Part shown: piece after piece, positions 51,897-54,465 of the stretch
How positions within the stretch are numbered: the stretch's first letter is position 1
Layout of the letters: the number at the start of each line of letters is the position of its first letter
Source: Dietzia psychralcaliphila
GTDB lineage: Bacteria > Actinomycetota > Actinomycetes > Mycobacteriales > Mycobacteriaceae
Length of the DNA: 64,000 nucleotides
Direction of reading: 5' to 3'
Assembly: GCF_003096095.1 (NCBI RefSeq)
Contig: NZ_CP015453.1
Span: 3,534,001-3,598,000 of the forward strand
The notes under the pieces: generated by a model
Told to the model about the DNA's origin: nothing
What the model saw: the letters and a program-made list of their open reading frames with translations, nothing else
Database searches by the model: none
Program-made: the position numbers and the translations under genes

Positions 51897-52247
51897 ATGC
51901 AGAACAGCACCCCGGACCAGATCACGATGGTCGAATTCCCCAGCACGTCGATGCCGGCGACCGCCGACTTCCTCGCGACCGTGTGCGGCTGGACGCCCAC
52001 CGTGTACGGGACGTCGTACACCGACCTCACCGGCGGCGGGATCGAGGTGGGGGTCCAGGGCGACGACGACGAACAGTCCCCGGCTCCGCTGATGGTGATC
52101 CGGGTGGCCGACCTGGCCGAGGCCCGCGGGCGGGTCGAGGCCGCGGGCGGCGTGGTGACCCTTGAGCCGTTCTCCTTCCCCGGCGGCCGACGGTTCCACT
52201 TCCGCGAACCGGGTGGCAACGAGATGTCCATGTGGGTGCCCGAGTAG
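51897..52247 (+). CDS. VOC-superfamily (glyoxalase-fold) small protein
   Basis: 116 residues. The paired VOC motif is visible: MVEFPSTSMPATADFLATVCGWTPTVYG at the start, LMVIRVADLAEARGRVEAAGG in the middle, and FHFREPGGNEMSMWVPE at the end, with the Glu metal ligand in EPGGNE. Substrate unknown. The stop is the first of three in-frame stop codons spaced 15 bp apart in a tandem repeat. Confidence 0.82.
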   Translation: MQNSTPDQITMVEFPSTSMPATADFLATVCGWTPTVYGTSYTDLTGGGIEVGVQGDDDEQSPAPLMVIRVADLAEARGRVEAAGGVVTLEPFSFPGGRRFHFREPGGNEMSMWVPE

Positions 52248-52280
52248 TCGGTGCCCGAGTAGTCACTGCCCGAGGTGTGA
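52236..52280 (+). repeat. 15-bp tandem repeat, three units, carrying stop codons
   Basis: GTGCCCGAGTAGTCG (52236), GTGCCCGAGTAGTCA (52251) and a diverged CTGCCCGAGGTGTGA (52266). Read in the VOC frame they give TAG, TAG and TGA. Confidence 0.85.
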
Positions 52281-52321: not shown

Positions 52322-53266
52322 TCACAATGTCGGCTCGAACCCCTCCGGCAGCGCGAGCCTCGTGAGTTTGGCCGGGTTCGAGTGGAAGTAGACCCGCGTG
52401 ACGTGGTGGTCGACCACGGCCAACTGGGCCACCCGCACGACCCCGCGGGAGACCACCGCCAGCGCGAACTCCCCGTTGACCTCGACCGGCGCGATCATGC
52501 CGCCGGACAGCTCCGTCGCCTTGACCAGGAAGTACGCGCACTTGCGGGCCCCCACGATGTCCCGCCTGGCGGCGTTGACCTTCCCGTCACTGTCCGAGAC
52601 CACCCGGGCGTCCGCGGTGAGGACGTCGATCGTCTGCTGGAGGTCACCGGCCAGGACTGCCTCGACCAACCTCGAGATCACCGCCTCCGACGCGCGCTCC
52701 GGCGGACGTAGGTCGGTGTCCAACCGATGCCGGGCCCGGCTGACCCACTGGCGGACCGTGGGCACGGCCGCGTCCAGTGCCTCGGCGATCTCGGCGTAGG
52801 GCAGGGCGTAGGCCTCGCGCAGGACAAAGGCCGCGCGCTCGTCGGGGCCCAGCTGCTCGTAGGCCAACAGGACGGCGATCCGCAGGTCGTCGCGCTGTTC
52901 GACCATTTCCGAGGGCAGCAGGGCGGTGTCGACGGGTTCGGGGAGCCACGCCCCGACGTAGGCCTCCCGCTTGCGTCGCCGCAGCCGGTCCAGGCACAAC
53001 CGCGTGGTGACGGTGGTGAGCCAGGCCTCGGGGTTGTCGGGCGCCGTGCCCGGTTCGAGCGCGACCAGACGGGCCAGGGCCTCGTCGGCGGCGTCCTCGG
53101 CGTCGGCCCACGTCCCGGTGATGCGGTACCCCACCCCGAGGAGTCGCCCCCGGACCCGGTCGATCGCGGACCGGTCGAGCCCGGCGACCACCCCGGGCGC
53201 TGTCACCCCGGGCGCTGTCACCTCGGCCGCTGTCACCCCGGGCGCTGTCACCTCGGCCGCTGTCAC
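52322..53266 (-). CDS. ECF41-type sigma factor with fused SnoaL-like regulatory domain (SigJ-like)
   Basis: 314 residues from GTG 53266, inside the ahpD-like stop (GTGA). After ~30 repeat-derived residues come sigma region 2 (VGYRITGTWADAEDAADEALARL, TTVTTRLCLDRLRRRK) and region 4 (QLGPDERAAFVLREAYALPYAEIAEAL). A C-terminal SnoaL/NTF2-like domain follows (~200-314), with SDSDGKVNAARRDIVGARK and ending NPAKLTRL, corresponding to the DGGGK and NPDKL elements of group ECF41. In that group the C-terminal domain replaces an anti-sigma factor, and the partner is a carboxymuconolactone decarboxylase-type gene, as here. Confidence 0.9.
   Translation of the reverse strand: MTAAEVTAPGVTAAEVTAPGVTAPGVVAGLDRSAIDRVRGRLLGVGYRITGTWADAEDAADEALARLVALEPGTAPDNPEAWLTTVTTRLCLDRLRRRKREAYVGAWLPEPVDTALLPSEMVEQRDDLRIAVLLAYEQLGPDERAAFVLREAYALPYAEIAEALDAAVPTVRQWVSRARHRLDTDLRPPERASEAVISRLVEAVLAGDLQQTIDVLTADARVVSDSDGKVNAARRDIVGARKCAYFLVKATELSGGMIAPVEVNGEFALAVVSRGVVRVAQLAVVDHHVTRVYFHSNPAKLTRLALPEGFEPTL
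53191..53265 (-). repeat. 15-bp tandem repeat, five units, at the sigma factor start
   Basis: Units at 53191, 53206, 53221, 53236 and 53251. On the coding strand each is GTGACAGCG(G/C)CCG(A/G)G and begins with GTG, giving five in-frame start codons 15 bp apart. Confidence 0.9.
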
Positions 53267-53763
53267 CTCGGGCGCACGGGATCGATGTCCTCCGGGCGGA
53301 CGCCCCGCAGCGATCCCGGGTCCTTCCGGGTGGCGACGGCGATCCGGTTCCATGCGTTGATGGTGACGACCTCCATCAGCAGCTGTCCAGTGCCCGCCTC
53401 GCCCCGGTGACGGACCACGTCGTCCCAGAGCTCGTCGGAGACCGACTCCTCGCCGTGGATGTGCGTGATCGCGTCCGCGAATCTCAGGACCGCGAGGTCG
53501 CCCGCGGGCAGCTCCCCGGCGTGCGCGGGCCAGTCCTCAGCGGCGAGGATGCGGGTGTCGTCCCAGCCGCCCCGCCGGGCGTCGCGTCGGTGCATCGCGG
53601 TGCAGAAGCGGCAGTTGTTCACCGCAGAGACGCGGAGGCGGATGAGGTGGCTGTCGGAGCGGGAGACCCGGGCCCGGGTGTAGGCCTCGAGCGCCAGCAT
53701 GGGGGCCATCGCCCCCGCGCTGACCTGTGTGCGCTGTCCGTGATCGTTCCGGTGTGTACTCAT
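53263..53763 (-). CDS. AhpD-like carboxymuconolactone decarboxylase-family protein, ECF41 partner
   Basis: 166 residues. The AhpD-like helical domain has LIRLRVSAVNNCRFCTAMHRRDAR with the redox C-x-x-C and the following His, then AVLRFADAITH and MEVVTINAWNRIA. Probably a thiol-dependent peroxidase or reductase of unknown substrate. It precedes and overlaps the sigma factor gene, the conserved context of ECF41 sigmas. ATG 53763 is chosen because an exact ECF41-type promoter ends 8 nt upstream. A GTG at 53799 would lie inside that promoter. Confidence 0.87.
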   Translation of the reverse strand: MSTHRNDHGQRTQVSAGAMAPMLALEAYTRARVSRSDSHLIRLRVSAVNNCRFCTAMHRRDARRGGWDDTRILAAEDWPAHAGELPAGDLAVLRFADAITHIHGEESVSDELWDDVVRHRGEAGTGQLLMEVVTINAWNRIAVATRKDPGSLRGVRPEDIDPVRPR

Positions 53764-53771
53764 ACCCCTTC

Positions 53772-53798
53772 GACGCACCAGCGCCCCCGGATGTGACA
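53772..53798 (-). promoter_or_regulatory. ECF41-type promoter (TGTCACA-N16-CGTC)
   Basis: On the minus strand TGTCACA (53798-53792), 16 nt, then CGTC (53775-53772), and 8 nt to the ahpD-like ATG. This is exactly the motif described for ECF41 sigma factors. A near copy of the -35 element (TGTCATA) lies 17 bp further upstream. Confidence 0.8.
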
Positions 53799-53815
53799 CG
53801 CCCCCGGATATGACA
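53782..53815 (-). repeat. 17-bp tandem duplication of the ECF41 -35 element
   Basis: Coding-strand units TGTCATATCCGGGGGCG and TGTCACATCCGGGGGCG lie head to tail and differ by one base. Confidence 0.8.
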
Positions 53816-53859
53816 GCGGATGGGTGCAGTCACCTATGGCGATCTGAGGAGTCCCCTCC

Positions 53860-53871: not shown

Positions 53872-54465
53872 ATGACCGATCCCGACGATCTGCTGCTCTC
53901 TGACACCGAGCGCCTGCACGCGCTCACCGCCCTCGGCGATCACTACGCGGCTGGCCGCCTCGACGACCCGGAGTTCCACTCCCGCTCGGGCGACGTGGCC
54001 GCCGCGCGCACACTGGGTCAGCTACGCGGGTCGTTCAGCGATCTGCCGGGGGGCATGCCGCTGACCAGCGTTGACGGCATGATCGTCCAGTCGGCCACGG
54101 CGGGCGGTGGCGAGCTGGTGCGATCCTCGTCGTCGTCACCCGCGGTGTCGGATCCGGATCGCGAACTCCAGGATCTGCGCAAGCGCGGCAGGACGGTGGA
54201 GACGCTCGACGGGCTGGTCCTGGGAGCGACACTCGTGGCCTTCCTCATCCTCCAGTTCGTGGTGGGCTGGGACTTCGCGTGGATCGTGTGGCCCTCATTG
54301 GTGCTGACCCTGGGGGTGCCGCGCGCGATCATGCAGTTCTCCGACTCGGACGAGGAGCTCTACGAGGAGCTCAAGGAGTCCGACGACGAGGCCCGCAAGG
54401 AGCGCCTCCGTGCGGCCACCGAGCGGATCCGCGAGCTCGGAGACGGGCGCGAGACGCGGGACTGA
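53872..54465 (+). CDS. DUF1707 domain membrane protein
   Basis: 197 residues. The N-terminal DUF1707 motif is LLLSDTERLHALTALGDHYAAGRLDDPEFHSRSGDVAAART, a short SHOCT-like helical domain. After an acidic linker come two close membrane helices (~120-160: LVLGATLVAFLILQF, FAWIVWPSLVLTLGVPRAIM), then a charged C-terminal helix rich in Glu/Arg. Function unknown. DUF1707 proteins are widespread in actinobacteria. Divergent from the ECF41 operon, whose promoter is next to it. Confidence 0.85.
   Translation: MTDPDDLLLSDTERLHALTALGDHYAAGRLDDPEFHSRSGDVAAARTLGQLRGSFSDLPGGMPLTSVDGMIVQSATAGGGELVRSSSSSPAVSDPDRELQDLRKRGRTVETLDGLVLGATLVAFLILQFVVGWDFAWIVWPSLVLTLGVPRAIMQFSDSDEELYEELKESDDEARKERLRAATERIRELGDGRETRD

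Follow-up and report, generated by a model that had tools for sequence, protein, structure and literature searches.

The 64-kb window analyzed here (a stretch of 64,000 nucleotides of the Dietzia psychralcaliphila genome) contains a gene pair, encoding a carboxymuconolactone decarboxylase (CMD)/AhpD-like protein and a sigma factor, behind a promoter-like sequence in which the -35 element is duplicated. The locus raises the question of which sigma factor drives the pair, where its RNA begins, and whether the second -35 element has a role. The explanation that best accounts for the whole, to which we assign a probability of about 0.75, is a self-activated operon promoter of the ECF41 type with a leaderless start at the ATG, coupled translation of the sigma gene, and an upper -35 element that has decayed.

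The minus strand at 53798-53772 consists of TGTCACA, 16 nt, and CGTC, as an earlier sequence-only reading of this DNA had claimed. The CGTC ends at 53772 and is separated by 8 nt (GAAGGGGT) from the ATG at 53763, which is the distance given in that reading. The order on this strand is TGTCATATCCGGGGGCG-TGTCACATCCGGGGGCG-CTGGTG-CGTC-GAAGGGGT-ATG (Table 1). A pattern scan for TGTCACN-N15..17-[CT]GTC identified 53798-53772 as the sole site in the window.

Table 1. Features of the promoter region and gene pair, in window positions
Feature	Position	Strand	Basis
Upper 17-bp copy TGTCATATCCGGGGGCG, degraded -35 TGTCATA at 53815-53809	53799..53815	-	TRF; shared only with G002 (L010) among 15 Dietzia loci
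Lower 17-bp copy TGTCACATCCGGGGGCG, -35 TGTCACA at 53798-53792	53782..53798	-	TRF; TGTCAC[AG] in 15/15 Dietzia loci
-10 element CGTC, 16 nt past the -35	53772..53775	-	Invariant, 15/15 Dietzia loci
8-nt discriminator GAAGGGGT	53764..53771	-	Final base a pyrimidine in 14/15 Dietzia loci
Predicted +1, A of ATG, 9th base past CGTC	53763	-	Prediction from S. meliloti start, pyrimidine-purine step, and N8 peak
CMD/AhpD-like gene, 166 aa	53263..53763	-	PF02627 (E = 2.7e-10); TIGR00778 above cutoff; AhpD core domain
ECF41-type sigma factor gene, start GTG at 53266	52322..53266	-	Sigma-70 regions 2 and 4; SigJ homology; WLPEP
Tandem array of a 15-bp unit at the sigma start (5.8 copies)	53189..53275	-	TRF; in-frame GTG in each unit

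The ECF41/COE promoters described by Wecke et al. (2012, PMC3426412) have the sequence TGTCACA-N16-CGTC and a carboxymuconolactone decarboxylase gene that is co-directional with, and upstream of, the sigma gene. The sigma factors of that group are characterized by a WLPEP motif in the linker between sigma2 and sigma4, a C-terminal extension, and apparently a single target (PMC3426412), and the Dietzia system is alike in these respects, with regard to the single target by pattern only. The COE gene expected beside an ECF41 sigma gene, for a carboxymuconolactone decarboxylase, an oxidoreductase, or an epimerase, is present, its product matching PF02627 and carrying a conserved CxxC; C51, C54, and H58 are invariant among 13 aligned Dietzia AhpD-like proteins. 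Pfam analysis of the sigma protein revealed sigma-70 regions 2 and 4 (PF04542 and PF08281), both above cutoff. WLPEP was found at W107-P111 and is invariant across 10 aligned Dietzia sigma factors. A C-terminal extension is also present (that of the ECF41 group is SnoaL-like and about 100 aa long), and the C-terminal motif of the sigma factor reads NPAKL, which we take to be the motif known as NPDKL. The sequence-only reading had assigned the sigma factor a fused SnoaL-like domain. What stands of this is homology to SigJ: the SigJ chain 5xe7 aligns to residues 34-275, and the SigJ model PRK09636 matches residues 41-312, below the model cutoff. A Pfam scan of the sigma factor listed no SnoaL domain even at E values up to 10, and the quality of the predicted structure (mean pLDDT, 50) was insufficient for fold comparison. 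A SnoaL-like domain is thus indicated only indirectly, by the homology to SigJ and by the ECF41 group as a whole (PMC8999054). The 16-nt spacer falls within the N16(+/-1) of ECF41 target promoters. Taken together, the motif, its spacing, and the features of the sigma factor argue for the ECF41 assignment that had been proposed. A further hallmark of the group is that no cognate anti-sigma gene adjoins the sigma gene.

The two genes overlap at GTGA, to which the sigma gene contributes its GTG and the AhpD-like gene its TGA. Since each unit of the 15-bp array at the sigma start contains an in-frame GTG, the sigma start codon is multiplied; by eye, none of the other 14 Dietzia loci compared has this array. 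The units also carry TGTCACC on the opposite (plus) strand. These were considered as possible half sites for the sigma factor; inspection of the last unit by eye found no CGTC at 16 nt. A further 15-bp tandem repeat (2.7 copies, GGTGCCCGAGTAGTC) is located at 52235-52274, in the gap that separates the sigma gene from its neighbor.

When 121 genomes were searched with the sigma factor, a clear orthologue was found in 16 of the 23 Dietzia genomes, counting that of the window. Upstream DNA was readable at 15 Dietzia loci; G019, in which the sigma match begins at contig base 7 and the DNA before it is therefore missing, was left out. A named search with an alignment of the AhpD-like protein returned 11 loci, 10 from Dietzia and 1 from Flavobacterium at 35% identity. 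TGTCAC[AG]-N16-CGTC-N8-ATG was present at all 15 readable loci, without exception. Two of the sigma matches were partial, that of G006 (L024) being split into two separate parts that lie in different frames, and that of G012 (L023) covering residues 30-227 only. Both genomes nevertheless have an intact promoter and the AhpD-like gene, and the sigma genes may be decaying or may contain sequencing errors.

Neither the motif nor its spacing varies between Dietzia species, whereas the DNA farther upstream diverges, which argues against the operon being driven mainly by another promoter or sigma factor, with the motif as a minor contributor. The genome does contain other sigma factors (nine matched stretches, this one included), as that alternative would need; no genome-wide motif match lies beside the best other homologue (L091, 32% identity). 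We consider it quite unlikely and favor the ECF41-type promoter. L091, near 1501-2283 (620179-620961 in its own genome), is a second sigma factor that is extended at its C terminus, the 32% identity extending over residues 41-308; inspection by eye found no WLPEP in it, and TGTCACA-N15..17-CGTC is absent there.

The pattern TGTCACR-N16-CGTC-N8-ATG was found exactly once per genome, at this locus, in 15 of the 23 Dietzia genomes, and the reversed control gave no match. Within the 3.9-Mb genome of the window, TGTCACA-N15..17-CGTC had nine matches, four of them with exactly N16, compared with one for the reversed pattern. A genome scan for the N16 form had been proposed in the sequence-only reading. 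At the eight N15..17 sites other than that of this locus, the next 120 nt downstream do not include the most upstream start of any open reading frame (ORF) of 80 aa or more. Because there is one N8-ATG site per genome and the eight further sites lack such ORFs, the sigma factor would, by pattern, have a single target, its own operon. Given the gene order and the occurrence of the motif at one site, autoregulation is probable. Published work on B. licheniformis, R. sphaeroides, and S. meliloti describes the same single-target picture (PMC3426412, PMC6180224). The S. meliloti SMb20029-rpoE9 system (PMC3616915, PMC6180224) resembles the Dietzia locus in its motif and gene pair, in its single target, which in Dietzia holds by pattern, and in the 9-nt distance to the start, which is mapped in S. 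meliloti and predicted here.

The position of the transcription start can be approached from the same S. meliloti system, in which transcription of SMb20029-rpoE9 (encoding RpoE9) was mapped to a start 9 nt downstream of the motif (PMC3616915). The S. meliloti sequence printed in PMC6180224 also ends 9 nt past CGTC, and we read its last base as the start. A start 9 nt past CGTC would place +1 at the A of the ATG here. We then examined ECF41 sites with leaders. From 38 loci outside Dietzia, chosen by sigma homology, 23 had TGTCACN-N16-[CT]GTC and an ORF with a Shine-Dalgarno-like stretch 32-99 nt downstream, a few of which may be false promoters. Bases 8 and 9 past CGTC form a pyrimidine-purine step in 19 of these 23 leadered actinobacterial sites and not in the other 4; the best other step reached 8/23. 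The same step occurs in 14 of the 15 Dietzia loci, in which base 9 is the fixed A of the ATG and base 8 alone is informative, the exception having an A directly before the ATG. All of these sequences share descent, so that the counts do not represent independent events. M. tuberculosis starts show a similar preference, with a purine at +1 and a pyrimidine common at -1 (PMC3898074).

The rival reading is a short leader with GAAGGGG as the Shine-Dalgarno sequence, or translation from codon 19, in which case the leader would be about 54 nt long. GAAGGGG, directly before the ATG, is purine-rich and Shine-Dalgarno-like, and the two mapped ECF41 transcripts of Wecke et al., from two other bacteria in two other phyla, have leaders of 22/23 nt with a ribosome-binding site, unlike the start predicted here (Table 5 of PMC3426412 gives 31 and 32 nt for these genes). 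However, the purine run GAAGGGGT stops 1 nt short of the ATG and differs among the loci (GACAAGAC, TGGAGGTC), and it is not conserved as a Shine-Dalgarno sequence would be. Similar G-rich bases follow CGTC in leadered ECF41 sites, far from any ATG, so these bases seem to be part of the promoter. As for codon 19, its Met is invariant among the 13 aligned AhpD-like proteins (of 15 loci), all of which begin with M-[SG]-T. The variable N-terminal segment that follows, within codons 1-18, differs in length by 1 to 15 residues and always by whole codons, and the frame set by the first ATG is uninterrupted through it in all 13, which favors the first ATG over Met19. The N8 peak in a second genus, described below, also opposes a short leader, and we regard such a leader, or a start at codon 19, as unlikely. 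The predicted leaderless and probably self-activating operon is well supported by these comparisons. The sequence-only reading had anticipated a leaderless or near-leaderless mRNA, and the comparative evidence and the mapped S. meliloti start support that prediction.

In a second genus of the same family (g29), TGTCACA-N16-CGTC-N4..12-ATG gave 65 matches in 49 of 98 genomes (reversed control, 5). N8 accounted for 48 of the 65, with each of the remaining eight spacings represented 1-4 times, and the base before the ATG is T or C at 46 of the 48 N8 sites. It is this complete g29 list that underlies the N8 peak, not the broader spacing histogram, which comprises 82 rows of the matches listed, with the rows of g22, g27, g5, g9, and g23 left out. 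Among these matches listed, 71 non-Dietzia rows were counted, with N8 in 22 and N2 in 14; CGTC-N2-ATG is thus itself frequent in this list, and three such sites coincide with N8 sites. A looser pattern (TGTCACR, N6-10, ATG/GTG) matched in 228 of 301 genomes, with many matches in the reversed control too, and was discarded as mostly chance.

Of at least 25 TGTCACA N8-ATG regions outside Dietzia among the matches listed, 24 were fetched, each about 3.2 kb in length. An ORF of at least 90 aa begins at N8 in 22 of the 24, 4 of which also have an in-frame start at N2; of 8 N6 sites fetched for contrast, 3 have an ORF of this length at N6. A sigma homologue lies within the fetched DNA in 15 of the 24 regions and is missing from 9, and the N8 matches outside Dietzia are therefore not all established ECF41 loci. 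In a Pfam scan of three N8 products, that from genus g3 matched CMD, one of the two from g29 matched CMD with a score slightly below the cutoff, and the other had no match. Both g3 regions contain an AhpD-like gene and a sigma homologue. Five N8-ATG sites (L134, L135, and L144 from g29; L146 and L147 from g22) precede genes that are not CMD-like by eye, one enoyl-CoA-hydratase-like and the others small and membrane-like. The DNA fetched around these five sites contains no sigma homologue, and they may be other ECF41 targets or chance matches.

An earlier motif scan had found 10 leadered sites outside Dietzia, and N8-ATG was at that point regarded as a peculiarity of the genus, a view dropped once N8 was found in g29. 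Leadered forms are common, and the leaderless form appears to be neither unique to Dietzia nor the rule. On balance, we favor the view that leaderless ECF41 promoters recur in the family (Dietzia, g29, and two g3 species), with the initiator base of the sigma factor belonging to the start codon, so that a circuit of one sigma factor and one target would be linked to leaderless translation.

The mechanism suggested by these analyses would operate as follows. The C-terminal extension would hold the sigma factor back in the absence of a signal. Once released, the sigma factor would recognize TGTCACA-N16-CGTC, and RNA synthesis would begin at the A of the ATG, 9 nt past CGTC, yielding a leaderless mRNA in which the initiator doubles as the start codon. 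Translation of the sigma gene would follow by coupling through the GTGA overlap. In this way the sigma factor would activate the promoter of its own operon, the CMD/AhpD-like gene followed by the sigma gene.

Both the ECF41 promoter type and leaderless mRNAs are known. The leaderless mRNAs of actinobacteria, for example M. tuberculosis, begin at the start codon or a few bases away from it, as is predicted here; in the accessible part of PMC3898074, ECF41 promoters are not described among them. No description of leaderless ECF41 transcripts was found in the literature searched, which largely excluded subscription papers and makes this a weak statement, and we regard the leaderless form as a modest novelty. 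If correct, ECF41 targets would provide a natural test of leaderless translation with a predictable +1, and one type of promoter and target would exist in leadered and leaderless forms among related genera. An extended ECF41 start rule for actinobacteria is also suggested, consisting of CGTC, 8 nt with G-rich bases at 5-7, and then a pyrimidine-purine step.

The remaining question is the duplicated -35 element. TRF analysis revealed a repeat of period 17 with 2.0 copies and 94% matches at 53782-53815. The upper copy, TGTCATATCCGGGGGCG, abuts the lower copy, TGTCACATCCGGGGGCG, and is identical to it at 16 of 17 positions. TGTCATA (53815-53809) therefore lies 17 bp upstream of TGTCACA and differs from it by one base, and its spacing to CGTC is 33; the sequence-only reading had described both the tandem duplication and this spacing correctly. 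That reading had left it open whether the second -35 is a decoy, a loading site, or a remnant. A functional element of this kind, tuning how much sigma-bound RNA polymerase occupies the promoter as a decoy or as a loading or holding site, might be suspected from the near-exact copy and its presence in two species. A comparison of repeat number among relatives, which had been proposed, found two copies in only 2 of the 15 Dietzia loci (the window genome and G002), and the upper -35 is missing from the other 13. The lower copy retains the consensus TGTCACA in both carriers, but the upper one reads TGTCAT in each, so that the upper copy seems to have lost the consensus before the carriers split. 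Inspection by eye for an alternative -10 found no CGTC at 15-17 nt from the upper -35.

Doubled sites were also sought more widely. Across 401 genomes of the family, 40 sites had a TGTCA that precedes the -35 of the motif by 13-29 bp, slightly more than the 24 obtained by our own count with the reversed pattern; most of these were taken by pattern and not as established ECF41 promoters. Two of the g29 N8-ATG sites (G353 and G277) have such an upstream TGTCA. The offsets of the doubled sites fill the whole 13-29 range without a clear peak or fixed value, 17 bp accounting for 5 of the 40, two of which are the Dietzia pair, and these sites thus give no sign of a conserved two-site geometry. Because the element is absent from 13 of 15 loci, reads TGTCAT in both carriers, and has no counterpart at a constant offset, the upper -35 is most likely a remnant and not a decoy or loading site; a function for it seems very improbable. 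As the decayed half of a 17-bp duplication limited to one Dietzia lineage, a feature that distinguishes it from the ECF41 systems of PMC3426412, it would probably have little or no effect, and the duplicated -35 is in itself of little importance.

As for the history of the duplication, G004 has a single copy, with matching flanks on both sides, and a tree of the ahpD-sigma pair groups G002 with this single-copy genome (93/97); a tree of the neighboring gene gave no order. Pairing of G002 with G004 would require loss in G004, recombination, or two gains. Farther upstream of the promoter, CCATAGG followed by TGA or GGA (window 53830-53839, minus strand) recurs in several Dietzia loci and may be part of the promoter of a divergent ORF that starts at 53872 on the plus strand.
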